Assembly: GCA_017964255.1 (NCBI GenBank)
Contig: JAGCSI010000030.1
Coordinates: 1-53,211 of the forward strand
Length of the DNA: 53,211 nt
Reading direction: 5' to 3'
Source of the DNA: Bacteroidales bacterium
GTDB lineage: Bacteria > Bacteroidota > Bacteroidia > Bacteroidales > WCHB1-69
Shown: positions 7,188 through 30,267 of the stretch, one piece after another
Layout: every line of letters starts with the position of its first letter
Position numbering within the stretch: the stretch's first letter is position 1
Notes under the pieces: generated by a model
Databases searched by the model: none
What the model was told of the DNA's origin: nothing
Seen by the model: the letters and a program-made list of their open reading frames with translations, nothing else
Program-made: the position numbers and the translations under genes

Positions 7188-8159
7188 ATGAATTGTCTTA
7201 AAAAATTTTGTTTCAACACTGCGCACTATGTCATCATTGCACTACTTTTTCTAACGATGAATATAAAGGCGCAAGGACAGGAAAAATTCATTTTCACACC
7301 GCAGTGGACGGCACAGGCACAATTTGCCGGCTACTACGTGGCCCAGGAAAAAGGATTCTACAAGGAAGCCGGGCTTTCGGTAGAGATTATCCACCCTTCC
7401 ACCACGCACCCGGCATTGAAGCGTATCCACAACAACGAAAGCCATGCCACCACCTTGCAACTCTGTCAGGCTATGAAGATTTTGGATGAAGGAGTCGAGG
7501 TTGTGAATATCTTGCAGACTTCAATGAACAATGCCATGGTTATCGTGTCGCGCCGCGGCGTTGATCCTCTGACACAAAAAGGAGAGCGTGTGGGTATCTG
7601 GAGCGCAGGTTTCGGCGAACTGGCTAAATGTATGAGTACAAAAGAACATCTAGACTATGAATGGACGCCTTTTGCCACGAATGTGAACCTGTTTGTAGCG
7701 GGTGCCATTGATGCGACGCTGGCCATGAGCTACAATGAGTATTTTCAGCTGGTGCAGACAGGTCTACCTGTGGACGGGAAGTGTGTATACCGTTTCTGCG
7801 ACCACGGTTACAACGTGCAGGAGGATGGCGTGTATATGACACGTGAATATTACGAGAAACATCGTGCGGAAGCCAAGAAGTTTGCCGAAGCCAGCCGTAA
7901 AGGATGGGAATGGGCGGCGGCACATCCTGAGGAAACACTGGATATCGTGATGAAATATGTGCATGAGAACCAAATTGTCACCAACAGGGTTTTGCAGAAA
8001 CTGATGCTGGAAGAAATACTCCGCCTGCAGGTCGACCGTGAATCGGGGAAACGGGAGTTCCGCCTTCGTCCCGACATGGTGAAACGAGCCAGTGATTTGA
8101 TGATGGAGTGCAACTTGTTGGAACATGAGATCACTTACGAACAATTAATCGCTAAATAG
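7188..8159 (+). CDS. Periplasmic NMT1/ThiY-like substrate-binding protein
   Basis: About 323 residues with a signal peptide ending near NIKAQGQ. The mature protein has the NMT1/THI5-like fold hallmarks: FTPQWTAQAQFAGYYVAQEKGFYKEAGLSVEI at the N-terminus and NLFVAGAIDATLAMSYNEYFQL in the second lobe. Family members bind thiamine precursors, nitrate or sulfonates for ABC importers. No ABC permease or ATPase is nearby. Instead, the gene is followed after 2 bp by a membrane SpoIIE-type phosphatase with a periplasmic domain, so a role as ligand-sensing subunit of that phosphatase is inferred. ATGs at 7173 and 7176 are alternative starts, but they lie very close to the -7 box. Confidence 0.8.
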   Translation: MNCLKKFCFNTAHYVIIALLFLTMNIKAQGQEKFIFTPQWTAQAQFAGYYVAQEKGFYKEAGLSVEIIHPSTTHPALKRIHNNESHATTLQLCQAMKILDEGVEVVNILQTSMNNAMVIVSRRGVDPLTQKGERVGIWSAGFGELAKCMSTKEHLDYEWTPFATNVNLFVAGAIDATLAMSYNEYFQLVQTGLPVDGKCVYRFCDHGYNVQEDGVYMTREYYEKHRAEAKKFAEASRKGWEWAAAHPEETLDIVMKYVHENQIVTNRVLQKLMLEEILRLQVDRESGKREFRLRPDMVKRASDLMMECNLLEHEITYEQLIAK

Positions 8160-8161
8160 CC

Positions 8162-10102
8162 ATGAAGTTCAGATTTTTATCTATTATCAGAAGCTCGCTT
8201 CCAATCCGACTGAGCCTTATTGTCGTCATTTTCACCGCCATCATTCTGATAGCCGCATTAGCCTTTTTGTTCAGAGTCTCGCGTGAGGCTATTCGTGAGG
8301 AAGCCATAGAACGGGCCACGAACCAGTTGGAGAACACCACTCTGCGCGTGAACGACATCCTTAACGGAGTGGAGATTGCCTCTATACACACCGAGTGGTT
8401 GGTAAATCGTCACCTCTATTTATCAGACTCCATGTTTGTTTATTCACGCCAAATTTTAGACAACAACCCGAATCTTAATGGCTGTTCCATCGCTTTCGAA
8501 CCCGATTTTTTCCCTGGGCGCGGGCGCTATTTTTCCGCCTACTCATACAACGACAATGGGGTGATCAGAACTACGCAGGAAGGAAACGATCATTACGAAT
8601 ATTTCTATATGGATTGGTATCAGCTTTGCAAGCTGTTGGACCGTCCGGTCTGGACGGAGCCCTTCATGGATTATAATCCCAACGACATTTACTCCAAAGA
8701 TATGATTGCTTCATACTGCAGACCTTTGAAAGACAAGGATGACCAGTATGTCGGAACGCTTTCAGTGGATATTTCTCTGGGATGGCTCTCCAAAACCATT
8801 TCTGCCGTAAAGCCTTATCCTCATTCTTATAGCATCATGATCGGCCAGGGCGGCACCTACTTTGTGCATCCTGACACGACCAAACTCGTATATCAGTCCA
8901 TTTTCACCGAATCAATGGATCATCCTGATTCGGCTATGGTGGAACTTGGACATGCCATGCAACGTGGAGACAAGGGAATGCGCCAACTGAAGGTAGATGG
9001 TGAGGACTGTTATGTCTTCTTCAATCCTATTGGCACAACCGGTTGGAGCGTGGCCATTGTTTGTCCCGAAAGTGACATTTTCGGTGGCTTCGACCAATTG
9101 CGCCGCTCCGTAATAGGAACGGTAATCGCAGGCTTGATACTGTTGATGCTGGTGTGCGGCCTTGTCATCCGCCACGAGTTAAAGCCTCTCACCCTTCTTG
9201 CCCGCCAAGCGGAAACAGTAGCTTCAGGTGATTTCAGCAAGACCTTGCCTTATGACGGAAGAAGTGATGAGGTGGGACAACTTAGCGATTCGTTTACCAA
9301 CATGCAACACTCGCTGGTCAATTACATCGAAGAATTGAAAAATACCACCGCACAAAAGGCCTCTATAGAAAACGAACTGAAGGTGGCCAGCGAAATCCAG
9401 ATGAGCATGGTGCCCCGTATGTTCCCGCCATTCCCCAACCGTAAAGATATCGACTTGTTCGCCTTCATGACTCCTGCCAAAGAGGTGGGCGGCGACCTCT
9501 ATGATTTCTTCATTCAGGATGAAAAGCTTCACTTCTGTGTGGGGGATGTCTCTGGCAAAGGTATTCCCGCCAGCCTCTTCATGGCTGTCACGCGCAACCT
9601 CTTCCGTATCGTGGCACAGCAGGGCCTCTCGCCAGAAGATATTGCCAGTCGAATCAACAATATTCTTTCCAAGGACAATGAGCAGTTCATGTTCGTCACG
9701 ATGTTCATCGGCAAGGTTGACCTATGCACCGGCCACCTCGATTATTGCAACTGCGGCCATAATGCCCCGATTATCAACGGCCAATTCCTTGAGATGAAGT
9801 ATCGTAACCAGCCTCTCGGACTTTTGGAGGGTGTTCCGTTCTATGGCGAAAGCATCGACTACATCAAGGACAAACAAATACTGCTGTACACCGATGGTCT
9901 CAACGAAGCTGAGAACTCGGACAAGGAGATTCTTGGCAACGAGCGTCTGATTGAGCTGATGCAAGATGCACAGGACAAGGATGCGCACCAGGTGATTGAC
10001 ATGCTGGTAGCCACCGTCGAAGAGCACAGGGCTGGTGCCGATCCTAATGATGACTTAACCCTCTTATGTTTGACCATCAAAAATATGGACAATCAGGCAT
10101 AA
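8162..10102 (+). CDS. Membrane sensor SpoIIE-family serine phosphatase (Cache-HAMP-PP2C)
   Basis: 646 residues. The order is TM1 (about 16-38), a periplasmic double-Cache-like sensor domain (about 45-300, with GCSIAFEPDFFPGRGRYFSAY), TM2 (about 320-342), HAMP (about 343-395), a short coiled coil, then a SpoIIE/PP2C domain (about 420-640). Metal-binding motifs GGDLYDF, VGDVSGKG, YTDGLNEAE and PNDDLTLL are all intact. Such phosphatases dephosphorylate STAS anti-anti-sigma proteins in partner-switching pathways. One STAS protein is encoded at 52001. The gene overlaps functionally with the binding protein 2 bp upstream. The natural substrate is not shown by the sequence. Confidence 0.9.
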   Translation: MKFRFLSIIRSSLPIRLSLIVVIFTAIILIAALAFLFRVSREAIREEAIERATNQLENTTLRVNDILNGVEIASIHTEWLVNRHLYLSDSMFVYSRQILDNNPNLNGCSIAFEPDFFPGRGRYFSAYSYNDNGVIRTTQEGNDHYEYFYMDWYQLCKLLDRPVWTEPFMDYNPNDIYSKDMIASYCRPLKDKDDQYVGTLSVDISLGWLSKTISAVKPYPHSYSIMIGQGGTYFVHPDTTKLVYQSIFTESMDHPDSAMVELGHAMQRGDKGMRQLKVDGEDCYVFFNPIGTTGWSVAIVCPESDIFGGFDQLRRSVIGTVIAGLILLMLVCGLVIRHELKPLTLLARQAETVASGDFSKTLPYDGRSDEVGQLSDSFTNMQHSLVNYIEELKNTTAQKASIENELKVASEIQMSMVPRMFPPFPNRKDIDLFAFMTPAKEVGGDLYDFFIQDEKLHFCVGDVSGKGIPASLFMAVTRNLFRIVAQQGLSPEDIASRINNILSKDNEQFMFVTMFIGKVDLCTGHLDYCNCGHNAPIINGQFLEMKYRNQPLGLLEGVPFYGESIDYIKDKQILLYTDGLNEAENSDKEILGNERLIELMQDAQDKDAHQVIDMLVATVEEHRAGADPNDDLTLLCLTIKNMDNQA

Positions 10103-13327: not shown

Positions 13328-13417
13328 ATGATCAACCAAATTATCGCTTTCAATAAGACATTCGTGGCGCAGAAGGGCTACGAAAAGTATAAGTCTATTT
13401 ATTATACTCTAGCTTAG
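13328..13417 (+). pseudogene. 5' remnant of a beta-carbonic anhydrase gene
   Basis: The ATG at 13328 opens MINQIIAFNKTFVAQKGYEK, which is the N-terminus of Bacteroidota beta-class carbonic anhydrases (normally continuing into the CMDTRL zinc motif). After about 22 codons the match stops and the frame runs into the antisense of the acrB 3' end, reaching a stop at 13417. The gene was therefore cut at about 13393, exactly where acrB ends. No zinc ligands remain, so it cannot be functional. A complete copy may exist elsewhere. Confidence 0.7.
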
Positions 13418-16400
13418 CGGACGCATTCTTGCTGATTTTTTCCTGTATTTTCCGAAACACGACAAACAATACCGGCACACTGAGCAGCAAGCCGAAGGTG
13501 CCGAAAAGCATGCCACCGACCACACAGACGCCGATCGTGCGGCTGCCGTTGGCGCCTACACCCGACGCAAACATCAGAGGTAGCATACCGATAATCATGG
13601 TGAGTGAGGTCATCAGGATGGGTCGGAGACGCACTTTGGCACTGCTGAGCGCCGCCTCGGTGAGCGACATCCCCTCACTGCGCGCCTGCGAGGCGTATTC
13701 GGTGAGCAGGATGGCCGTTTTCGACAGAAAACCTACCAGCATCACCATCCCAATCTGCATGTAAATATTATTCTCCACGCCAAACAGCTTGGCAAACAGC
13801 AGACTGCCCGCCAGACCAAAGGGCACCGACAGCATCACCGCCAGCGGGATGAATAGGCTTTCGTAGAGAGCCACCATCACAAGATAGGCAAAGATGATGC
13901 ATATCAGGAATATGAGAATTATTCTGCCTGATGTCTGGCTCTCCTCGCGGGTAATGCCGCCAAACTCGAGACTGTACCCCACAGGCAACTCCTTCGCGGC
14001 AGTTTCCTGAATGGCACGGATAGCACGACCGGAGCTACTACCCTCAGCCACACTGCCCGAGACATCGATGCTGGGGAACATGTTGAAACTGTTGATGGAC
14101 TGAGGCATATACTCCTTGGTGAGCGTGACGAACTGGTTGATGGGCATCATCTCGCCGCTTTCGGATCGCACAAAGAGGTTCGCTAACGACTCGGGGCGGT
14201 TGCGGTCGGAAGGACGAAGCTGCAAATCAACTTGATACACCTTGTTGTATTTGTTGAAATTGGAGATGTAGTCGCCGCCCAGATAGGCCCCCATCTCGTT
14301 GAGCACGGTGGAGGGTGCAACGCCCATCTTCTTGCACCGTGCCACATCCAAATCCACGCGGTACTGCGGATAGTTGACATCGTAGCTCGAATAGACCTCG
14401 CTGATTTCGGGGCACTCGCTCAGCTTTTCCGTAAAGCGGGTGGTGACTTCGTGCAGCGTCTTGGCGTCTTGTCCGTTGCGTCCCTGTACCGAGAACTCGA
14501 AGCCGCCGTTGCCGCCATAGCCCTCCACCATGCCAGGTTCGGAAACAAAACTCTGCGCCTCAGTTTCTTGTACCAGCAGTTCATTGATTCGTTCCATTAC
14601 GGTGGTGGACGAATGAGCTTTCCCTTTGCGATCCTTCCAGGGCTTCAGTTGGATAAAGATATTGGCGCTGTTGCTTCCGGAGCCTACGCCTACCACACCT
14701 CCAACATCCTGCACTTCGGGCAACTCGCGGATTTTGTCGCAAGTACGGTTCATCATATCAAAAGTTTTATTGGCGGTATAGCCCGAAGGTGCCGTAAGGT
14801 CTGCGAAGAGCGTACCCATATCTTCATTGGGTATAAAGCCAGTGGGAACAAGCTTGAAGAGGATACCGAACAGCAGCAGGGTGACGCCCACCCCGACGGC
14901 CACCACCCCTTTGCGATGTAACAAACGTTGTATGATGGAAATGTAGTGCTTCAGCAAGGCGTTGAAGGTTGTTTCGTAGGCGGTACGGATCCACAATTGC
15001 AGGGATGTTTTTCCCGTTTTTTGTAGAGACGTTTCATGAAACATCTCTACGGATGGTTTCAAAATCAATGCACATAATGCCGGTGACAGCGTCAGCGCGT
15101 TGATCAGCGAAATGCCTACGGCGACCGCCATTGTCAGACCAAACTGCTTGAAAAAGATGCCGGTGGTGCCGCCCATAAACGCCACGGGGATGAAGATGAC
15201 CATAAAGACCAGCGTGGTGGTGAACAGCGTGACCGAAAGTCCGTTCATAGCGTCCTCCGAGGCTTTGCGGGCGGAGGTGTAGCCCTCGTCAAAACGGGCT
15301 TTCACCGCCTCTACCACCACGATGGAATCGTCCACCACGGTACCGATGACCAGCACCAACGCGAAAAGTGTCAGCAGATTGACCGAGAAGCCCGCCAACT
15401 TCATAAAGGCAAAAGTGCCGATAAGCGACACGAGGATGCCGACGGCGGGAATCAGCGTAGCACGAAAATCTTGCAGGAAAAACAGCACCACCACCAACAC
15501 CAGCACGATGGCGATAATGAGTGTCAGTATCACCTCGCGGATGGATGCGAAGAGAAAGTCGTTGGTGTTGTCGAAGGTAACAATCTTCACATCCTTGGGC
15601 AGCGATTTCTCGCTTTCAGCCAACAGTTTGTCTATTTCGAGGTTGATTTTGGTGGCGTTGGAGCCGGCCATCTGGCTCACCGAGCCCATCACGCCCGGAT
15701 GCCCGTTAATGCTGTTGATGTAGTCGTAATCCGACTGCCCCAGCTCAACATCTGCCACATCCTTCAGCAGCAGTTCCTCTCCAGTGGGCAGCGAGGCTAT
15801 CACAAGATCCCCGAACTCCGACACCTCGGTTTTGCGCCCCGTGTAACGCAGCACATACTGGAACACATTGTCGGAATTGCTGCCCAACGAACCGACTGAG
15901 GCCTCGATGTTCTGTTCAGCCAGCACGGCGGATATGTCGCTGGGCATCAGCTTGTGTCGGGCCATCACGTCGGGTTTGAGCCAGATGCGCAGGGCGTATT
16001 GCGCGCCCCATACTTCCACCTTGCCCACGCCCTTGATACGGAGCAGGGCGGGACGCAAGTTGTTGTAAAAATAGTTGCTGAGGAAGTTCTCGTCGTAGGT
16101 GCCGTTGGGACTCTCCAGCGCAATGATACGAAGCTGTCCGGGTTGCCGTTTTTCGGTGCTTACACCCGTTTTCAACACCTCGGCAGGCAGCTGCCCCTGC
16201 GCCTGGATGACACGGTTCTGCACATTCACGGCGGCCATATCGGCATTGGCACCTTGCTCGAAGTAGATGGTGATGCTAGCCGAGCCGTTGCTGGCCGACG
16301 AGGTCATATAGGTCATTCCTTCCACACCATTGATGGCCTCCTCCAGCGGCATCACCACGCTCTTCTGTACCGTTTCGGCACTCGCCCCCGGATAGCTTGC

Positions 16401-16541
16401 CCACACGTAGATGGCGGGCGGCGCGATGTCGGGATAGCGCTCCACCGGCAGCGACAGCAGCGAAATTACACCCAGCAGCACGATGATCACGCTGATGACC
16501 ATCGAAAGGAGCGGACGATGGATGAAGGTTTGGGTACTCAT
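13395..16541 (-). CDS. RND multidrug efflux transporter permease (AcrB/MexB family)
   Basis: 1048 residues, the full length for hydrophobe/amphiphile RND pumps. The N-terminus (MSTQTFIHRPLLSMVISVIIVLLG), the proton-relay motif GTVVDDSIVVVEAV in TM4, the large periplasmic loops, and the conserved C-terminal TM block (LMTSLTMIIGMLPLMFASGVGANGSRTIG) are all present. It drives drug/proton antiport with a periplasmic adaptor and a TolC-like channel. The adaptor gene is 3.8 kb upstream on the same strand (20397), with an unrelated cassette between, and no TolC homologue follows. A palindromic repeat is built into the central cytoplasmic loop (15023-15050). Confidence 0.95.
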   Translation of the reverse strand: MSTQTFIHRPLLSMVISVIIVLLGVISLLSLPVERYPDIAPPAIYVWASYPGASAETVQKSVVMPLEEAINGVEGMTYMTSSASNGSASITIYFEQGANADMAAVNVQNRVIQAQGQLPAEVLKTGVSTEKRQPGQLRIIALESPNGTYDENFLSNYFYNNLRPALLRIKGVGKVEVWGAQYALRIWLKPDVMARHKLMPSDISAVLAEQNIEASVGSLGSNSDNVFQYVLRYTGRKTEVSEFGDLVIASLPTGEELLLKDVADVELGQSDYDYINSINGHPGVMGSVSQMAGSNATKINLEIDKLLAESEKSLPKDVKIVTFDNTNDFLFASIREVILTLIIAIVLVLVVVLFFLQDFRATLIPAVGILVSLIGTFAFMKLAGFSVNLLTLFALVLVIGTVVDDSIVVVEAVKARFDEGYTSARKASEDAMNGLSVTLFTTTLVFMVIFIPVAFMGGTTGIFFKQFGLTMAVAVGISLINALTLSPALCALILKPSVEMFHETSLQKTGKTSLQLWIRTAYETTFNALLKHYISIIQRLLHRKGVVAVGVGVTLLLFGILFKLVPTGFIPNEDMGTLFADLTAPSGYTANKTFDMMNRTCDKIRELPEVQDVGGVVGVGSGSNSANIFIQLKPWKDRKGKAHSSTTVMERINELLVQETEAQSFVSEPGMVEGYGGNGGFEFSVQGRNGQDAKTLHEVTTRFTEKLSECPEISEVYSSYDVNYPQYRVDLDVARCKKMGVAPSTVLNEMGAYLGGDYISNFNKYNKVYQVDLQLRPSDRNRPESLANLFVRSESGEMMPINQFVTLTKEYMPQSINSFNMFPSIDVSGSVAEGSSSGRAIRAIQETAAKELPVGYSLEFGGITREESQTSGRIILIFLICIIFAYLVMVALYESLFIPLAVMLSVPFGLAGSLLFAKLFGVENNIYMQIGMVMLVGFLSKTAILLTEYASQARSEGMSLTEAALSSAKVRLRPILMTSLTMIIGMLPLMFASGVGANGSRTIGVCVVGGMLFGTFGLLLSVPVLFVVFRKIQEKISKNASAKLEYNK
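15023..15050. repeat. 28-bp palindromic repeat inside acrB
   Basis: GTAGAGACGTTTCA followed by TGAAACATCTCTAC forms a nearly perfect palindrome (one G/T wobble pair). It encodes about residues 498-507 (MFHETSLQ) in the loop joining the two halves of the RND transporter, a place tolerant of insertions. Palindromes of this GTAGAGACGTTxCATGxAACGTCTCTAC type are known as mobile short repeats in other phyla; the relationship here is inferred. Confidence 0.65.
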
Positions 16542-16565
16542 AGCAATTCCTTATCAAATTTTGCG

Positions 16566-16573
16566 CAAAATTA
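16566..16573 (-). promoter_or_regulatory. Possible promoter -7 box (TAATTTTG) for acrB
   Basis: Minus-strand TAATTTTG lies 24 bp upstream of the acrB start codon. Its presence would let acrB be expressed without read-through from acrA. Confidence 0.5.
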
Positions 16574-16638
16574 TAGGGATTGTGCCGATGGCGTTGCGGG
16601 AAAGTGTGTGAAACGGGAATAATGGAGGGTGAAGTGAA

Positions 16639-16648
16639 GGGGGGGGGG
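16639..16648. repeat. Ten-G homopolymer tract upstream of acrB
   Basis: Run of ten G residues (ten C on the acrB sense strand), 98 bp upstream of the acrB start and 126 bp upstream of the proposed defence-operon -7 box. Such tracts are prone to slippage. The remainder of 16574-16728 shows no gene. Confidence 0.8.
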
Positions 16649-16728
16649 CAGGATGCAAACAATGGCTTTAGGAAAAGAGTAGAAAAAAGTGATCAAATAT
16701 GCTGATCATCATAAGGTTGTATTTTTTT

Positions 16729-16754
16729 GTGAAAAATTCACGTGAATTTTTCAC
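16729..16754. promoter_or_regulatory. Perfect 26-bp palindrome (operator candidate) before the AbiL-like operon
   Basis: GTGAAAAATTCAC followed by GTGAATTTTTCAC is a perfect palindrome. Its right arm covers the expected -33 element of the promoter at 16774. A second, imperfect dyad (TGATCA...TGATCA) lies at about 16690-16709. The position suggests a repressor or activator site for the two-gene operon downstream. Confidence 0.6.
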
Positions 16755-16773
16755 GTCATATAAAGAAAATTTG

Positions 16774-16781
16774 TATCTTTG
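16774..16781 (+). promoter_or_regulatory. Promoter -7 box (TATCTTTG) of the AbiL-like operon
   Basis: TATCTTTG lies 30 bp before the ATG at 16812 and 19 bp after the palindrome. Confidence 0.8.
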
Positions 16782-16811
16782 CAGCCCGTATGAATTTGTA
16801 ATACCATTGTC

Positions 16812-18107
16812 ATGTTATTGAGAATCACCATTCAGAATTTGTTGTCTTTCTATGAAAAGACCACATTCGACATGTTTCCGAACCCGAAACGTGAGATTTT
16901 TGCCAATCATATCAATACAAATGAAAAAATCCCACTACTCAAGCATGCTTTGATATATGGGGCTAATGGATCGGGCAAATCTAATTTCGTAAAAGTGTTG
17001 CGATTCTTAAAGTCATTTGTCACAATAGACAATTTTCTGAATATCATTGATTTGAATGACTTTTTCTTTCAATTGGTTCGCACCAATAATGAACCAATGA
17101 AAATTGAAATTGAATTTTTCACCAAATGTAATTATTATATTTACCAATTGGAAATTCAGCATTCTCAAAAGAATAACATTAGAGAACGGCTGTTGTTGTC
17201 TGGTCTTGGCGAACAGGATGACACTTTGATATTTGAGAGGGTTGGTGATGTTGTGACTCCAACTACCGACAACAAGCTTTCAACAGATTTGTTGAAGAAG
17301 AACAATGGTTCTTCGATAATCTGTTTAAACACCAAGTACCCTGTGATTAATGAAAAACACATTCAAATTGCTTATGATTGGTTTCTTAATGATTTTGATA
17401 TCATCACCATCAACTCTCAAACACCTTTTTTGATTGACATGATGTCGAATAACAAGCAATTACTTGATTATGCCAACATCCTGCTTTCGCATTTGCATAT
17501 TACGGATTCGCTCAAGGTGGGAGAAACACCTATTGAAAAGTGGATGTCGAATAAGAAAAACGCCTCAGAACTACAACAGATGCTTCTCAGGAACCCTATA
17601 AGTGAGCATACCGGATTAACGTCCTTTTCCAACAACCGAAACAACTTCAACATTACTATGAAAAATGGAGAACAAATTGTTCAAGAATTTCTATTTGAAC
17701 AATTAGGCATTGGTGGCTATAAAAAGAAAATGAATATTGCCAGTCAATCCGATGGAACCGTACGCTTGCTCACACTGATACCAGCTTTATATAATGCCAG
17801 TAGAGGAAAAGTTGTGGTGATTGATGAGGTTGAAAATAGTATGCATCCTAATCTCATCTATAATCTGCTGAAATACTTCTTCAATAGTGAATCAAAAGGA
17901 CAACTCATCTGTACTACTCATCTGACCTTATTCCAAGACCAACAGGATTTAATTCGCCCAGATGAGTTGTGGAAGGTTGAAAAGGAGAATGGCAATTCTA
18001 AAATGCATTCGTTTAATGACTATAAGATACACAACACCATGAATATAGAGAAAGGGTATCTTGAAGGTCGATATGGCGGAGTTCCACAAATCTCAATCAT
18101 AGAATAA
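16812..18107 (+). CDS. AAA-type ATPase, AbiLi/RloA-like defence protein
   Basis: 431 residues of the AAA_21/SMC-like ATP-binding group. It opens with LLRITIQNLLSFYEKTTFDM, the usual start of this family. Walker A is GANGSGKS (residues 50-57), Walker B is VVVIDEVENSMHPN (Asp338/Glu339), and the His switch is CTTHLTLF. Homologous ATPases pair with RloB proteins in the AbiL abortive-infection and RloAB arrangements. Here the RloB partner starts on the very next base. The presumed role is an ATP-driven sensor that controls the partner nuclease during phage infection; this is inference from family and pairing. It is more AT-rich than acrA and acrB on either side. Confidence 0.85.
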   Translation: MLLRITIQNLLSFYEKTTFDMFPNPKREIFANHINTNEKIPLLKHALIYGANGSGKSNFVKVLRFLKSFVTIDNFLNIIDLNDFFFQLVRTNNEPMKIEIEFFTKCNYYIYQLEIQHSQKNNIRERLLLSGLGEQDDTLIFERVGDVVTPTTDNKLSTDLLKKNNGSSIICLNTKYPVINEKHIQIAYDWFLNDFDIITINSQTPFLIDMMSNNKQLLDYANILLSHLHITDSLKVGETPIEKWMSNKKNASELQQMLLRNPISEHTGLTSFSNNRNNFNITMKNGEQIVQEFLFEQLGIGGYKKKMNIASQSDGTVRLLTLIPALYNASRGKVVVIDEVENSMHPNLIYNLLKYFFNSESKGQLICTTHLTLFQDQQDLIRPDELWKVEKENGNSKMHSFNDYKIHNTMNIEKGYLEGRYGGVPQISIIE

Positions 18108-18887
18108 ATGGCAGACGACAGATATTATCAGAAGAGGAATCCCGAAAAAGAGCCATTGGAGGGTGTTGTGGGCAAATATTTGACTTCAACAGCTTCTAAT
18201 GATAATGAATTGTCTGTTTCAAATCTCGCATATACAAAACCCGAAGCCACACTTCAGCCTAAAGCATACCTGATTGTCTTTTCTGGCGGTACAGAAAGGG
18301 AGAAAAACTATTTCTACCTAATAAAGCACAATACCTTGTTATACCCAGATATAAAAGTTGATTTCTTTGCTGAACCAAATTTTGAAAAAGGAGGCAAACC
18401 CTTAATAACAAGCTTTGCGATAGGCAAGGTGAATGAATATCGTGAATCCGCCAGTGTGGATAATCCCGACAGTTACTGGTTGCTTACTGATGTTGACCAT
18501 TTTGAGCAATTTCTTGCGGAAATGAAAACTGAATGCGATAAAAATGGCATTGAATTAATCATAAGCAATTCTTGTTTTGAAGTATGGTTGTATTATGCTG
18601 AAAAAGCTGACAAATGTTTGGGTTTTGAAATCCCTGACGATAAAAACAAAATTAGTTCCGCATTCAAGACTTGGGCTGACACACAAATCAAAGGCGGATT
18701 AAAACCTCGAAAGGCAATCTTGATGATTGAACAGAATATCGCCAATGCCAGAGCGAACTATTCTGAAAAAAATGGATTTCCAACCCTGTTCTCAACACAG
18801 ATGTTTTATTTGGCAGAGAAAATGTTGCCGTATGTTAAAGATGGTAATGAGAAGATTCTAGGGGAGAAGAATTCCCGAAGGAAATAA
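18108..18887 (+). CDS. RloB-like Toprim-type protein (AbiLii-like)
   Basis: 259 residues. Toprim-like motifs are visible: GGTEREKNYF (Glu63), TDVDHFEQF (Asp128, Asp130) and the RloB signature SNSCFEVWLYY (153-163). The first 50 residues are variable and look disordered. RloB proteins are predicted metal-dependent nucleases that act with an AAA ATPase as phage-defence effectors. The gene abuts the upstream ATPase with zero spacing, so translation is probably coupled. All acidic residues expected for catalysis are present. The exact cleavage target is not known from sequence. Confidence 0.85.
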   Translation: MADDRYYQKRNPEKEPLEGVVGKYLTSTASNDNELSVSNLAYTKPEATLQPKAYLIVFSGGTEREKNYFYLIKHNTLLYPDIKVDFFAEPNFEKGGKPLITSFAIGKVNEYRESASVDNPDSYWLLTDVDHFEQFLAEMKTECDKNGIELIISNSCFEVWLYYAEKADKCLGFEIPDDKNKISSAFKTWADTQIKGGLKPRKAILMIEQNIANARANYSEKNGFPTLFSTQMFYLAEKMLPYVKDGNEKILGEKNSRRK

Positions 18888-18934
18888 TCTTAGGTGGGTA
18901 CTCCTTCGTCATACACTGAAGCATATTAAATATG

Positions 18935-20245
18935 TCAACTATTCACGACCCATGTCGTACAATTTAACAGTCCTCCTTCTTTGGCTATTTCATTGTAATT
19001 GATTGTTTCGATTTGTTTGTTGGGAAATGTTTTTTGTAAGATATCCACAACTTGTTTGTCCTCTTCACGATTAAATATCGGCAACACTATCAAATCATTA
19101 ACCTCTAAATAGTTTACATAGATTCCGATTGCACTTTCTGGATGATTTGGATCTTTGTCTTCAAAAAATGGAATGTCAATATATGCAAGGCTATATGTGT
19201 CGATAGCCTTCTGCAAACCTTCTTTCATGTATTGGTATTCGTTAGTACGTCGTTCATTGCCAATTATAGTATATTTGTCCACAAATCTGACCATTCCGTC
19301 TGAGTGTCCTGTCAAATCTTCCGATTGTGATTTTAGCGCAGGAATAATGATAACATCTTCACATTCTAACAGTTTTGACAAATTGTTTATCAGAGCTTTT
19401 TTTTCGGATTCATAGTTGGGGTTCCCTTTTTGAATGATGCCATTTTCTGAAAAAACTCTATCCGACACTATTGCCCTTCCATCACAAATAAGGACATTTC
19501 CGCCATCTAAGTTTATGTCAGATGTTGTTATTTCAAAATCACTCAACCAGTCATTCTTCTTTCGTATTTCTGTTATGTCGGAACGCAACTCTTCCCATTC
19601 TTTTTTACCTTTCAAATAAGATGGATCGTATTTAAACTGGATAAATCTTCCTGATTTTGTTTGGACAGGCATATAATCACGACACCAGATATCTTTTGTT
19701 CCTTTTATGAACGAGTATTTTACATGATGCCTTTCCAGAATCTCAATCAAGTTTTGGCATGTTATTGGGTGTCTGCTCATCAGCAACTCTGACATATATA
19801 CGGTTTGTTCAGAATTGTCCGGAGATAATGGGTAAGCATGTGGTTTGGCAGATGAACTGTTTTCTTTTTCAGAATGCTTGCTTTTGCTCTTGATTTTGAT
19901 GTATTCAGCTCTTTTTGTCCGACTATCATATCCCAAAAATTTCTTGCATACTTCTTCATTTGGTTCAATCTCGTTACTCACACAAATGTCCAAAAACACA
20001 TCTTCCCTTCCTTTGTTTGGCAATACAAAATTCTGTATATATTCCTTTCTTATACGATTCCCCATCAAAACATTCATTTTTTTCAAGACTTTACGATGTT
20101 CTTTGCTTGTTAATTTCTTATCCACAAGCATGTCCATCAATTTTGTAAGCGGTTGTTTCTTTAGCCTTTTGTATAAAGGCACAACCGTTACGCCTCCAAT
20201 AGCTATTAATCCACTAACAATCCCAATTATAGATTCAACAGTCAT
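18935..20245 (-). CDS. Membrane-anchored agmatine/peptidyl-arginine deiminase-family protein
   Basis: 436 residues in two parts. Residues 1-26 form one membrane helix (ESIIGIVSGLIAIGGVTVV) with a basic cytoplasmic flank, followed by a helical module to about 105 (LMDMLVDKKLTSKEHRKVL; GRIxKEYIQNF-like core) and a Ser/Lys-rich linker. Residues about 145-436 are a guanidino-group-modifying enzyme of the agmatine deiminase/PPAD fold: IWCRDYMP (Asp190), NLDGGN (Asp247), GHSDGMVRFVD (His314, Asp316) and the nucleophile in GGLLNCTTWV (Cys429). All catalytic residues are present. There is no signal peptide, so the catalytic part should be cytoplasmic. It converges with the RloB gene and sits in the cassette that separates acrA from acrB. 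Substrate unknown: free agmatine, arginine or protein arginine. Confidence 0.85.
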   Translation of the reverse strand: MTVESIIGIVSGLIAIGGVTVVPLYKRLKKQPLTKLMDMLVDKKLTSKEHRKVLKKMNVLMGNRIRKEYIQNFVLPNKGREDVFLDICVSNEIEPNEEVCKKFLGYDSRTKRAEYIKIKSKSKHSEKENSSSAKPHAYPLSPDNSEQTVYMSELLMSRHPITCQNLIEILERHHVKYSFIKGTKDIWCRDYMPVQTKSGRFIQFKYDPSYLKGKKEWEELRSDITEIRKKNDWLSDFEITTSDINLDGGNVLICDGRAIVSDRVFSENGIIQKGNPNYESEKKALINNLSKLLECEDVIIIPALKSQSEDLTGHSDGMVRFVDKYTIIGNERRTNEYQYMKEGLQKAIDTYSLAYIDIPFFEDKDPNHPESAIGIYVNYLEVNDLIVLPIFNREEDKQVVDILQKTFPNKQIETINYNEIAKEGGLLNCTTWVVNS

Positions 20246-20293
20246 TTTTTTATCGTTAAAAAATCAAAGACAAAACAATACGTATAATTTCTT

Positions 20294-20313
20294 TCACACT
20301 ATAATCAGTGTGA
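20294..20313. promoter_or_regulatory. Inverted repeat in the deiminase leader
   Basis: TCACACT-ATAATC-AGTGTGA is a perfect 7-bp inverted repeat just downstream of the deiminase promoter box. A regulator could bind here and block transcription. Confidence 0.5.
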
Positions 20314-20321
20314 CTAATTTG

Positions 20322-20329
20322 CAAAAATA
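20322..20329 (-). promoter_or_regulatory. Promoter -7 box (TATTTTTG) for the deiminase gene
   Basis: Minus-strand TATTTTTG with a good upstream context, 76 bp before the start at 20245. Its presence shows the deiminase is transcribed independently of acrA. Confidence 0.75.
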
Positions 20330-20396
20330 CAACTTTTTCCAATATGAAATATTGATTGATGTGATAAGTCTTAATTACATTATCAATCTTTTTCCA

Positions 20397-21482
20397 TTAC
20401 CTCACTCTTTCTCCTTCCTCCACAAACCCCGCGCCTTTGGCGATAATCACATCCCCCTCCTTGAGGCCACTCACTACCACATACTCCTTGCCATTGTTTT
20501 GGCTTTCCACTTGGATGATGGTGGAGACCGTCTTGCCGTCAACGACCTTATACACATACACTTTGTCCTGAATCTCGTAGGTAGCCTCCTGCGGTATGAC
20601 GATGGCGTTTTTCCTCACGGAGGGCATCACGATTTTACCCGTGCCGCCACTGAGCAGGATGCCGTCGCGGTTGTCGAAGAGGGCACATACGGAGACCGCC
20701 CCTGTGGCCTCGTCCACAATGCCGCTGATGCTCTCCACCCGCCCCGTCTGGCCGTAGAACTGGCCATTCGGGAGGAGTAAACGTACCTCAGGCATCTGAT
20801 TAACAGCTGCTTCCATCGTCTTATGCTCGCTCAGGTAATCCATCAAGACGGTTTCGCTCATCGAGAAATAGGCACGGATGTGGCGGTTGTCGGCCACGAC
20901 GGTTAGACCATCCTGAAGGTTGGAACTCACAAAATCACCCTTTCTATAGCGTATTCTTCCAACCACCCCGTCCGAAGGGCTGCGCAATTCCGTATAACTG
21001 AGGTCGTTTCGTGCGGAAGTAAGGGCTGCTTGCGCTGCTGCCAAATTGGCTTTCGCCATGTCAAGTTCGCTTTCCGACAGAGCCAACTCATGGTCAGAGA
21101 TGACATTCTTTGCGTAGAGTTTCCTCTTGCCTTCATGCTCTAGTTGCGCCTTACCCAAAGCTGCCGTCATTTGCTGCACGTTGGCGTTGGCCGCCTCCTC
21201 CGCTGCCCTGTAGGTCGCCGCCTCCACCCGAAACAGCAGCTGTCCCTCCTTCACCTGTTGTCCCTCCTTTACGTAAATACCTTGCAGATAGCCTTCAATG
21301 CGCGGAATAATGCGTATATCCTGCTGTCCCTTCAGTGAAGCGGCATACTCGGTGGACAACTCGTGGTCACTGGCTGTAATGGTCAGCAACTCATAGTGTT
21401 TAGGCTCGTCGCCCTCGTTCTGCTGCCGCGATGCGCATGAAAGCATCAGCACCGGCAGCAACAACCATATCATCCTCTTCAT
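20397..21482 (-). CDS. RND efflux periplasmic adaptor (AcrA/MFP family) lipoprotein
   Basis: About 361 residues. A lipoprotein signal (MKRMIWLLLPVLMLSC) anchors it in a membrane. The biotinyl-lipoyl half-motifs (RIEGYLQGIYVKEGQQVKEGQLLFRVE and LRSPSDGVVGRIRYRKGDFV) flank a helical hairpin (about 85-140), followed by beta-barrel and membrane-proximal domains. It links the AcrB-type pump to an outer membrane channel. Upstream on the same strand are a LytTR regulator and a histidine kinase. Downstream, the expected adjacent acrB is displaced to 16541. The Met at 21491 is a less likely start because it removes the charged signal start from the N-terminus. Confidence 0.93.
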   Translation of the reverse strand: MKRMIWLLLPVLMLSCASRQQNEGDEPKHYELLTITASDHELSTEYAASLKGQQDIRIIPRIEGYLQGIYVKEGQQVKEGQLLFRVEAATYRAAEEAANANVQQMTAALGKAQLEHEGKRKLYAKNVISDHELALSESELDMAKANLAAAQAALTSARNDLSYTELRSPSDGVVGRIRYRKGDFVSSNLQDGLTVVADNRHIRAYFSMSETVLMDYLSEHKTMEAAVNQMPEVRLLLPNGQFYGQTGRVESISGIVDEATGAVSVCALFDNRDGILLSGGTGKIVMPSVRKNAIVIPQEATYEIQDKVYVYKVVDGKTVSTIIQVESQNNGKEYVVVSGLKEGDVIIAKGAGFVEEGERVR

Positions 21483-21624
21483 TTTATACATCCTTATAAA
21501 TTTTGATGCAAAAGTGAGGATTTATATATAAACTATCAATGTAATTATGAATGAAGCGGGAAAAATCAATGATGAACCGTCATTAAAACTATTTGCTCAG
21601 AAGAAACATTCTGTAGCAGTTCAA

Positions 21625-28569: not shown

Positions 28570-28890
28570 ATGAGCAAGACTACGATGGGCACCAAATTGC
28601 CCAGAAAGCTGGAGCAAAAGATGCAGACGGTGGGCGAGCAAATCAAACTGGCCCGCCTAAGACGTAATCTCAGTATAGCACAAGTGGCTGAACGAGCTAC
28701 CTGTTCGCCGCTGACCGTGGCGCGGATTGAAAAAGGCTCCCCCACGGTGGCTATCGGCATCTATCTGAGGGTGTTGTACGCCTTGCAGCTCGACGATGAC
28801 ATTCTGTTGTTGGCGCAAAAGGACGAGTTGGGTAGAGCCTTACAGGATCTTGCGCTAAAACGTCGCGAACGTGCGTCAAAGAAGGGATAG
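28570..28890 (+). CDS. HipB-like HTH antitoxin
   Basis: 106 residues. Residues about 24-80 form an XRE helix-turn-helix: IKLARLRRNLSIAQVAERATCSPLTVARIEKGSPTVAIGIYLRVLYAL. The C-terminus is basic (LKRRERASKKG). It precedes a HipA-like kinase gene, so it is the probable antitoxin and autorepressor of the hipBA operon. The 30-bp gap to hipA is a GGTTAGAAGG microsatellite. Confidence 0.88.
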   Translation: MSKTTMGTKLPRKLEQKMQTVGEQIKLARLRRNLSIAQVAERATCSPLTVARIEKGSPTVAIGIYLRVLYALQLDDDILLLAQKDELGRALQDLALKRRERASKKG

Positions 28891-28920
28891 AAGGTTAAAG
28901 GGTTAGAAGGTTAGAAGAGT

Positions 28921-30267
28921 ATGAAGACTTTATATGTTTATGCAGATTTTGATTGGCTGGACGCACCGACGCTGGTGGGCGAGTTGGGCTATGAGTCGCT
29001 TCGTGGCTCGGACAGCTATGCCTTCAAGTTTGATAACGATTGGCTTCGACAGTACGGGAGTCTTTTTCTGAGTGCCGACATCAACAACTACCCGGGACAG
29101 CAATACACCCGGCCCGGACGTGACATTTTCGGCTGTTTCAGCGATGCATTGCCCGACCGATGGGGTAAGCTCTTGCTGAACCGACGCGAACAGATTTTGG
29201 CAACAGAAGAGCGGCGACCCATAAGAAGACTATCTTCGTTCGATTATCTAATTGGTATCGACGACTTTTCGCGCATGGGTGGCTTCCGTTTTAAGATGGC
29301 ACCCGATAGCGAGTTCATCAACCGATGGAGCAGCGAGAGCCATCAAGCTCGCTTGAATGGCCGAGTCGCGACAGAGGAAGACGAAGTCAACTGTGATAGC
29401 CATCTCCGCATTCCTCCATTGACCGACCTCCGTTCGTTGGTTGCCGCCAGTATGGAGATTGAGAAAAGCGAGGAACTGAACAGTTTGCCCGAAAAGAAAT
29501 GGATTCAGCAGCTGGTCCATCCGGGAAGCTCATTGGGTGGCGCTCGTCCCAAAGCGGGAGTGAGAGACACCGACGGCTGTCTTTATGTGGCCAAGTTCCC
29601 TTCGCGTAACGACGATTACGATGTGTCGCTATGGGAACACCTGAGCCATCTGCTAGCAAAGAAAGCGGGAGTGATTGCCGCTGAAACGAGTGTTATTCCC
29701 TCAGGCGGCAAATACCATGCTCTGCTCTCCAAACGCTTCGACAGAACAGCTGACGGACGGAGAATCCATTTCGCCTCAGCGATGACCCTCTTGGGACTAA
29801 CTGACGGAAGCGACGCTCAAACGGGCAACGGTTATCTCGACATTGTCGATTTCATCCTCCAGAATTGCTGTCAAGTGGAGGACAACCTGCGGCAGCTTTA
29901 TCGTCGCGTAGCGTTCAACATCGTTATCGGCAACACTGATGACCATTTCCGCAACCACGGCTTCCTGCTCACCCCACGGGGCTGGACATTATCGCCTGCC
30001 TACGACATGAATCCCACCACCAACGAATACCAAAGCCTTCTCATCACTTCTTCATCCAACAAGTCAGACTTGAATCTCCTTTTGGAAGCCTCTGAAGAAT
30101 ACATGATTGGCAAGGAGGAGGCTGCCAAGATTATTAGCGAGGTAACTGATGCGGTCAAAGCTTGGCGGAGGATGGCTGCCACACTTGGAATCGCGAAGCG
30201 TGAGATGGAGTTGTTTGAAAACACTATTAAAACAGGCTGTAATTTGTATAAAAAGGAAAAGTCATGA
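28921..30267 (+). CDS. HipA-like serine/threonine kinase toxin
   Basis: 448 residues. The N-terminal couple_hipA region (about 1-100) includes FGCFSDALPDRWG. The C-terminal kinase shows GSSLGGARPKAGVRD (P-loop), YVAKFPS (ATP-binding Lys), FNIVIGNTDDHFRNHGFLL (catalytic Asp and Asn) and SPAYDMNP (the DFG equivalent). HipA kinases phosphorylate glutamyl-tRNA synthetase or other targets and cause growth arrest. All catalytic residues are intact, so it should be active. A second, frameshifted kinase-like gene follows at 30396. Confidence 0.93.
   Translation: MKTLYVYADFDWLDAPTLVGELGYESLRGSDSYAFKFDNDWLRQYGSLFLSADINNYPGQQYTRPGRDIFGCFSDALPDRWGKLLLNRREQILATEERRPIRRLSSFDYLIGIDDFSRMGGFRFKMAPDSEFINRWSSESHQARLNGRVATEEDEVNCDSHLRIPPLTDLRSLVAASMEIEKSEELNSLPEKKWIQQLVHPGSSLGGARPKAGVRDTDGCLYVAKFPSRNDDYDVSLWEHLSHLLAKKAGVIAAETSVIPSGGKYHALLSKRFDRTADGRRIHFASAMTLLGLTDGSDAQTGNGYLDIVDFILQNCCQVEDNLRQLYRRVAFNIVIGNTDDHFRNHGFLLTPRGWTLSPAYDMNPTTNEYQSLLITSSSNKSDLNLLLEASEEYMIGKEEAAKIISEVTDAVKAWRRMAATLGIAKREMELFENTIKTGCNLYKKEKS

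Follow-up and report, generated by a model that had tools for sequence, protein, structure and literature searches.

A predicted membrane-anchored deiminase in a Bacteroidales genome may be the partnerless form of a mobile enzyme family with exchanged companions

INTRODUCTION

Why would a bacterium encode a deiminase that is predicted to sit at the inner face of its membrane, beside a pair of AbiL-like genes? Deiminases serve in metabolism, and those that are secreted citrullinate proteins. The gene that raises the question lies on a contig of a Bacteroidales bacterium (GenBank assembly GCA_017964255.1, contig JAGCSI010000030.1), and the whole stretch of 53,211 nucleotides that we analyzed is called the window here. 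A sequence-only reading of the window had tentatively taken the gene for a membrane-bound member of a defense cassette. Here we ask what kind of enzyme it encodes, whether it belongs with its neighbors, and which companions its relatives keep.

RESULTS

Gene, fold, and membrane orientation

The open reading frame was confirmed, from ATG to stop, as a minus-strand gene of 436 codons in a gut bacterium (Table 1). Its product matches Pfam PAD_porph (PF04371) over residues 182 to 432 (E = 1.8e-28; 100.2 bits against a gathering score of 25), and Asp190, Asp247, His314, Asp316, and Cys429, which we take to be the residues that act in catalysis, are invariant in a 62-sequence alignment of deiminase relatives, as are D396, G425, N428, and others. 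When the profile from this alignment was compared with solved structures, it matched the agmatine-deiminase fold (1xkn, 3.2e-22; 6b10, 8.9e-21; 2jer, 1.7e-16), with 2cmu and 3hvm as further nearest relatives. The catalytic set that the sequence-only reading had named is thus present, and the window deiminase is, judging from its sequence, a catalytically complete member of a known enzyme family in a variant form.

The AlphaFold2 model (mean pLDDT, 89.8) places a helix at residues 3 to 30, more helices up to residue 128, and a low-confidence linker at residues 129 to 142, followed by the deiminase fold. Both the model and the hydrophobicity bear out the N-terminal membrane helix and helical module (here, the N-module) that had been claimed. 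The most hydrophobic stretch spans residues 6 to 22; the net charge is 0 ahead of it, and the 15 residues that follow carry +5. Under the positive-inside rule, the +5 flank predicts that the enzyme faces the cytoplasm, and this sequence pattern suggests an N-out/C-in orientation. Among 71 N-module ORFs (three split loci are counted twice), 63 bear more positive charge on the C-terminal flank of the helix than on the N-terminal one. The charge pattern therefore agrees with the earlier placement of the enzyme at the inner face of the membrane and with a helix that is not a signal peptide.

Table 1. Features of the deiminase locus in the window
Feature	Position	Strand	Basis or remark
Membrane-anchored deiminase (predicted), 436 aa	18935..20245	-	ORF call, Pfam, alignment, AlphaFold2 model
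N-terminal module, residues 1-115: membrane helix (about 3-30) and helical module	19901..20245	-	Module profile searches, AlphaFold2 model, charge pattern
Low-confidence linker, residues 129-142	19820..19861	-	pLDDT below 50
Deiminase domain, residues 143-436	18938..19819	-	Invariant residues in 62 sequences; PF04371
Catalytic codon D190	19676-19678	-	
Catalytic codon D247	19505-19507	-	
Catalytic codon H314	19304-19306	-	
Catalytic codon D316	19298-19300	-	
Catalytic codon C429	18959-18961	-	
TAnnTTTG promoter-like element (TATTTTTG), 84 bp upstream of ATG	20322..20329	-	17/39 relatives vs 3.1 expected
Perfect 7-6-7 palindrome TCACACT-N6-AGTGTGA	20294..20313	.	Separates the promoter-like element from the ATG
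AbiLi-like ATPase and RloB/AbiLii-like pair	16812..18887	+	Neighbor, judged outside the deiminase unit
Low-GC islet	16542..20396	.	Splits RND efflux operon, adaptor (20397-21491) from pump (13395-16541)

Relation to agmatine deiminases

Since the Pfam family and the nearest solved structures include agmatine deiminases, the protein might be an ordinary enzyme of polyamine metabolism to which a membrane anchor has been added. Its score against AguA (TIGR03380), however, is 57.8 bits, far below the equivalog cut-off of 381.8. Its own genome (74% complete) holds one match to the N-carbamoylputrescine amidase AguB, a point in favor of the metabolic identity, but this match reaches 67 bits (E = 1.5e-18) against a cut-off of 410.25, so that no AguB stands above the cut-off there. 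Together, the AguA and AguB scores make free agmatine less likely as the main substrate. The window protein also has Asn-Cys and Asp-Gly-Gly-Asn motifs at positions where agmatine deiminases presumably have His-Cys and Glu-Gly-Gly. Occurrence is patchy as well (at E = 1e-10, 53 genomes out of 393 from the order have a match, canonical-length homologues included), and ordinary polyamine operons, named beforehand as the setting of a nondefensive enzyme, were looked for and not seen in 24 loci judged by eye. We therefore consider an ordinary metabolic role improbable.

Genomic setting

The deiminase gene and the AbiL-like pair (35 to 38% GC, against 54 to 55% in the flanking pump genes) separate the adaptor of an RND efflux operon from its pump. 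The adaptor directly adjoins the pump in all 11 other RND loci that were taken from related genomes (12 loci, the window's included, were drawn from 34 listed pump matches), so that a block of about 3.85 kb, holding the deiminase and the AbiL pair, appears to have been inserted into the window operon. No orthologous empty site was seen among these loci, and since identity to the nearest RND pumps does not exceed 54%, it is the general rule of an adaptor next to its pump that the comparison could show. Elsewhere in the window, an HTH gene is followed by a HipA-like kinase gene (28570 to 30267; Pfam HipA_C, 1.4e-47).

The two genes beside the deiminase are AbiLi-like (PADLOC, E = 1.3e-64) and RloB/AbiLii-like (Pfam, E = 6.8e-14; PADLOC, 6.9e-13). 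When the other deiminase loci (the best 80 of 264) were searched by blastp (E = 1e-4; flanks of 8 kb or less, 47 of the 80 loci having 4 kb or more on each side), no relative of AbiLi or RloB was found in any of the 80. The proposed cassette with AbiL is accordingly not supported, and we rejected AbiL as a functional partner of the deiminase.

The gene had also been credited with its own promoter and a dyad. Upstream of the start codon lies a TAnnTTTG element, which we take to be a Bacteroidetes promoter motif; the same motif stands upstream of 17 of 39 N-module relatives that have no same-strand gene just upstream, where letter shuffles predict 3.1. The palindrome is real and is the sole site in the genome with at most one mismatch, but 7-bp dyads precede 3 of those 39 relatives, against 3.3 expected. 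Given that the motif is enriched and dyads are not, the promoter-like element is a feature of the family and the dyad is not, and the dyad was rejected as a family operator.

A low-GC islet shared with an AbiL-like pair and a promoter-like site of its own would suit an anti-phage effector that acts alone, in which infection triggers the anchored enzyme to deplete agmatine or arginine or to citrullinate proteins. Against this reading stand the absence of AbiL from all 80 other loci and the outcome of a PADLOC (2023) search, in which neither the window deiminase nor its relatives L129 and L124 matched any family; an assignment to defense by way of known systems thus finds no support.

Relatives of the deiminase

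Short peptide patterns, which reach close relatives only, were searched in one genome per species across 84,980 species and yielded 264 stretches that encode deiminase relatives, from which the best 80 loci were kept. Among the 393 genomes of the order there were 58 deiminase matches, of which eight weak ones were not taken and L159, L160, and L170 were dropped. The family was found mainly in the window's order, Bacteroidales. Carriage by phages or plasmids was rejected: no record matched over 80% of the query, with partial matches in 8 plasmid and 7 phage records. Viral contigs gave one weak contig with a single protein and 13 with distant relatives found by profile, and a PHROGs search with the window deiminase gave no result. 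On two viral contigs (L186, 6007 to 7600; L195, 1066 to 2611), a deiminase-family gene stands directly before one that resembles phosphatidylserine decarboxylase (Pfam, 9.5e-18 and 5.1e-33). Two nearly identical loci, L038 and L039, come from a Lachnospiraceae MAG and a Prevotella MAG, for which a binning error is more likely than transfer.

Our counts cover 68 loci with the N-module and 52 without it, exclusive of the window; L033, which has one deiminase of each kind, is in both. The matching ORF counts, 71 and 54, take L009, L054, L070, L118, and L156 twice. Left out were L082 to L117, which are short copies of kept loci or of L118 to L137, L157, and L158 (this exclusion also removed the N-module locus L087, whereas L086 and L088 match L078 and L060), together with L001, L138, L139, L159, L160, L170, and L171, the last a duplicate of L050.

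The architecture varies among these relatives. The deiminase is split into two adjacent ORFs at L009, L054, and L070, carries Sel1 repeats fused to its C terminus at L147 (Pfam) and L109 (by eye), and has other N-terminal domains at L089 and L142 (by eye). Several close relatives (L043, L045 to L048, and L050) begin with a signal-peptide-like sequence and L062 with a lipoprotein-like one, which would place those enzymes outside the cytoplasm. At L043, L045, L046, L047, L048, and L050 (around 7500 to 9000), the signal-peptide-like deiminase lies downstream of a glycosylase-like gene, and in all of these but L045 a 114-aa gene is called just upstream. A stretch similar to this 114-aa gene recurs inside fused proteins, for example, at L089 and L142 (by eye).

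Distribution of the N-module

A 45-row profile of the N-module gave strong matches in 4 of the 393 genomes of the order, each on this deiminase, and, among 395 genomes sampled from the phylum, in the window's own genome only. The suggestion that the module recurs on other enzymes in defense islands therefore came out negative, with deiminases as the only carriers in both sets, and we rejected the N-module as a domain common to effectors. That it was not found on other effectors also speaks against the window protein as an anti-phage effector. Four weak matches (E = 2e-4 to 1e-3) look unrelated, three being regulator-like and one ferritin-like by eye, and among solved structures the module had no match (best E = 0.29).

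DNA-enzyme-like partners of relatives without the N-module

A DNA-enzyme-like gene lies within 700 bp and on the same strand at 37 of the 52 loci without the N-module and at 0 of the 68 loci with it (by ORF, 38 of 54 and 0 of 71). The window deiminase likewise has no DNA enzyme within 700 bp on its strand. The 37 partners divide into 30 glycosylase-like, 4 HNH-like, and 3 Mug-like genes; the other 15 of the 52 loci have no recognized partner within this distance.

The glycosylase-like partner is about 200 aa long and is usually encoded directly upstream of the deiminase, often overlapping its start. Counting all upstream partners, 18 of 34 overlap the deiminase start; at L125, L148, and L157 the partner is downstream, and at L149 partner and deiminase are fused in one ORF of 513 aa. 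Across 20 aligned copies of the glycosylase-like protein, Glu40, Tyr42, Gly70, Asp72, Leu86, Arg88, and Arg144 are invariant. Its similarity to methylpurine-DNA glycosylase (PF02245) lies under the curated cut-off in both copies that matched (L120, E = 3.7e-5 over nearly the whole profile; L194, 0.0093), and nine of the 11 copies scanned had no match. Compared with solved structures, the partner profile found no glycosylase (best E = 0.2, to an unrelated chain). These sequence comparisons argue weakly for a glycosylase identity.

The linkage between partner and deiminase recurs at the level of whole genomes. Among the 393 genomes of the order, the glycosylase-like partner had 36 strong matches (E under 1e-10), 27 of which lie within 1.7 kb of a deiminase match, 26 on the same strand; in the exception, in genome G023, the partner faces a deiminase of canonical length. 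The nine unlinked matches fall into genomes that have a deiminase match at another place (three) and genomes that have none (six). A search of 385 genomes of the phylum gave 5 matches, 3 of them in newly met genomes, and the deiminase was adjacent in all 3. The glycosylase-like partner was not found in the window's genome (74% complete), and a search of plasmids for it gave no result.

The remaining partners are more diverse. HNH-like genes occur at L124, L127, L133, and L137, where three match Pfam HNH under the cut-off (0.002 to 0.069) and L133 has no match; the L127 protein matches PHROG endonuclease VII (1.6e-9). Mug-like genes occur at L121, L129, and L143. The L121 and L129 proteins have no Pfam match, and a phmmer search related the L121 protein (4e-5) to 2l3f, which is recorded only as uncharacterized and which we take to be a putative uracil-DNA glycosylase. 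The distant relative L195 on a viral contig, which stands outside the 37 of 52, has a GIY-YIG nuclease partner (Pfam, 1.3e-8). When eight partner proteins were run through PADLOC, the sole match, a weak one, linked an HNH-like partner with Csn2 (E = 0.005). On another viral contig (L185, 4797 to 6825), a DUF6642 gene with a weak CHAT match, a glycosylase-like partner, and a deiminase stand in a row. At L033 (8001 to 11654), an N-module deiminase faces, about 1.2 kb off, a glycosylase-like gene that is accompanied by a second, truncated deiminase of 180 aa.

The pairing of deiminase and DNA enzyme in these relatives points to an undescribed two-part unit. This exchangeable partner, which lies outside the window, is the better lead, and the window deiminase is kin to the proposed two-gene unit, not a member of it. 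A literature search, with subscription journals mostly outside its scope, found no title or abstract opening on this deiminase or its pairing with a DNA enzyme.

The two-gene order, the overlapping starts, and the exchange of partners also recall a toxin-antitoxin pair, in which the DNA enzyme would be a toxin that the deiminase neutralizes by citrullinating an arginine; Arg88 and Arg144, invariant in the glycosylase-like partner, would be suitable targets, and the N-module form would be an orphan or repurposed antitoxin. The fused ORF at L149 and the partners downstream of the deiminase fit this arrangement poorly, and we rate it as rather unlikely.

Exchange of companions in the deiminase tree

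A tree of 99 deiminase domains was built after 20 ORFs that lack the search motif and all ORFs shorter than 260 aa had been set aside. Its topology requires 8 changes of the N-module label, and well-supported branches force at least 4 of these; the five rows closest to the query include the partner-bearing L043, L045, and L047. A tree that holds the 61 N-module rows together was rejected (p-AU = 3e-8) in a test on 87 rows, from which 22 divergent rows, eight near-copies, ORFs shorter than 240 aa, and two ORFs that lack the motif had been removed. Since a single N-module clade is rejected and module and partner do not coincide in the loci counted, the N-module and the DNA enzyme look, from these sequences, like companions that can stand in for each other beside a mobile deiminase core. 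The exclusion is mostly a contrast between clades: supported branches offer only 4 independent pairs, too few for a sign test (median p = 0.5, not significant). Recombination inside the deiminase gene could give the same broken N-module clade.

Neighboring genes

At 28 of the 68 N-module loci, a same-strand gene within 150 bp belongs to one of five clusters (0, 1, 2, 6, and 49) with lipoprotein- or signal-peptide-like members, which fits a role in the envelope as well as one in conflict. In clusters 0 and 2 (L027, 9338 to 10141; L071, 3605 to 3988), lipoprotein-like proteins with a common domain of the LTFKGKKTV type adjoin N-module deiminases, a short form upstream and a longer form downstream. 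Taken together with the signal-peptide-like forms of the deiminase, the 28 loci would be consistent with an envelope or stress enzyme that is cotranscribed with lipoproteins or exported proteins and modifies proteins near the membrane. However, the neighbors vary between loci (they form 740 clusters, none of which is present in more than 12 loci), nothing of this kind adjoins the window gene, and the charge pattern predicts a cytoplasmic enzyme, so we regard an envelope function as unlikely.

Neighbors with likeness to defense genes bear on the anti-phage reading. At E = 1e-6, PADLOC assigned 54 families among the sampled neighbors of N-module loci (110 of 361 genes) and 110 families among those of other loci (110 of 319 genes); these are raw counts with several models per gene, from a sample that left out six near-copy loci, and give a hint only. 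Within the first 25 families of each set, the N-module neighbors include PDC-S27, viperin-like, and dGTPase families, and the neighbors of loci without the module include some strong matches, such as GajB, REase_II, and several PDC candidates. The latter, together with the L129 unit that lies directly before an HsdR-like gene (by eye), favor an anti-phage effector, whereas the lower number of families beside N-module loci, the kind to which the window gene belongs, counts against one. The window deiminase may have an anti-phage action; that it acts alone as such an effector seems to us about as doubtful as the envelope function.

DISCUSSION

We favor, at slightly less than an even chance, the reading that the window gene encodes a mobile, self-standing, catalytically complete, and membrane-anchored deiminase, the partnerless form of a family in which the core is constant and the companion is exchanged. 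This interpretation is drawn from comparisons of genes and their surroundings. The gene would be a mobile accessory gene whose product is held by its N-terminal helix at the inner face of the cytoplasmic membrane. The deiminase would be the constant core, and its companion either a separate methylpurine-glycosylase-like, Mug-like, or HNH-like gene or the fused N-module. At the level of residues and fold, Cys429, with His314 and Asp190, Asp247, and Asp316, would hydrolyze a guanidinium to a ureido group, and arginine in protein would be a more likely substrate than free agmatine or arginine. The companion may set the site of action, at nucleic acid with a DNA enzyme and at the membrane with the N-module, and the likeliest setting would be genetic conflict, in which the enzyme could serve as toxin, effector, or neutralizer. 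Several observations count against this reading: the weak matches of the glycosylase-like and HNH-like partners to their families, the missing Pfam match of the Mug-like ones, the signal-peptide- and lipoprotein-like starts of some relatives, the lipoprotein-like neighbors of N-module loci, the 15 loci in which no partner was recognized, and the small number of independent pairs in the tree.

A larger claim, which we put forward only tentatively and hold to be clearly less probable, is that Bacteroidales have an undescribed two-component conflict or defense system, in which a constant deiminase acting on protein or nucleic acid is combined with an exchangeable glycosylase or nuclease. The window gene would then be a single-protein version in which a private N-module replaces the DNA enzyme. 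If this is true, an intracellular mobile deiminase that swaps a membrane anchor for DNA-excising or DNA-cutting partners would link arginine deimination to bacterial genetic conflict.

Comparison with known systems

The window protein belongs to the same family as agmatine deiminase and the Porphyromonas-type peptidylarginine deiminase (PF04371) and has the same catalytic positions. It differs from these enzymes in its shorter catalytic domain (about 290 aa) and its N-terminal membrane and helical module, and from agmatine deiminases in its Asp-Gly-Gly-Asn and Leu-Asn-Cys motifs. Passages of PMC13060105 treat agmatine deiminase as a metabolic pathway, named apart from the defense island.

The window's genome also encodes a second PAD_porph protein (L198, 907 to 2598 on contig C145; 563 aa), of the secreted PPAD type. 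In contrast to this protein, which has a signal-peptide-like start and a T9SS-type C terminus (by eye), the window protein has neither and lacks a C-terminal extension. The AbiL pair adjoins the window deiminase and is similarly low in GC, yet the association is not conserved (0 of 80 loci).

The usual partner of the relatives resembles methylpurine-DNA glycosylase (AAG/MPG, PF02245), below the family cut-off, and its invariant Glu40 and Tyr42 sit where AAG/MPG has its catalytic Glu and a Tyr. The window protein is a variant of a known enzyme family; the two-gene unit seen in its relatives may amount to more.
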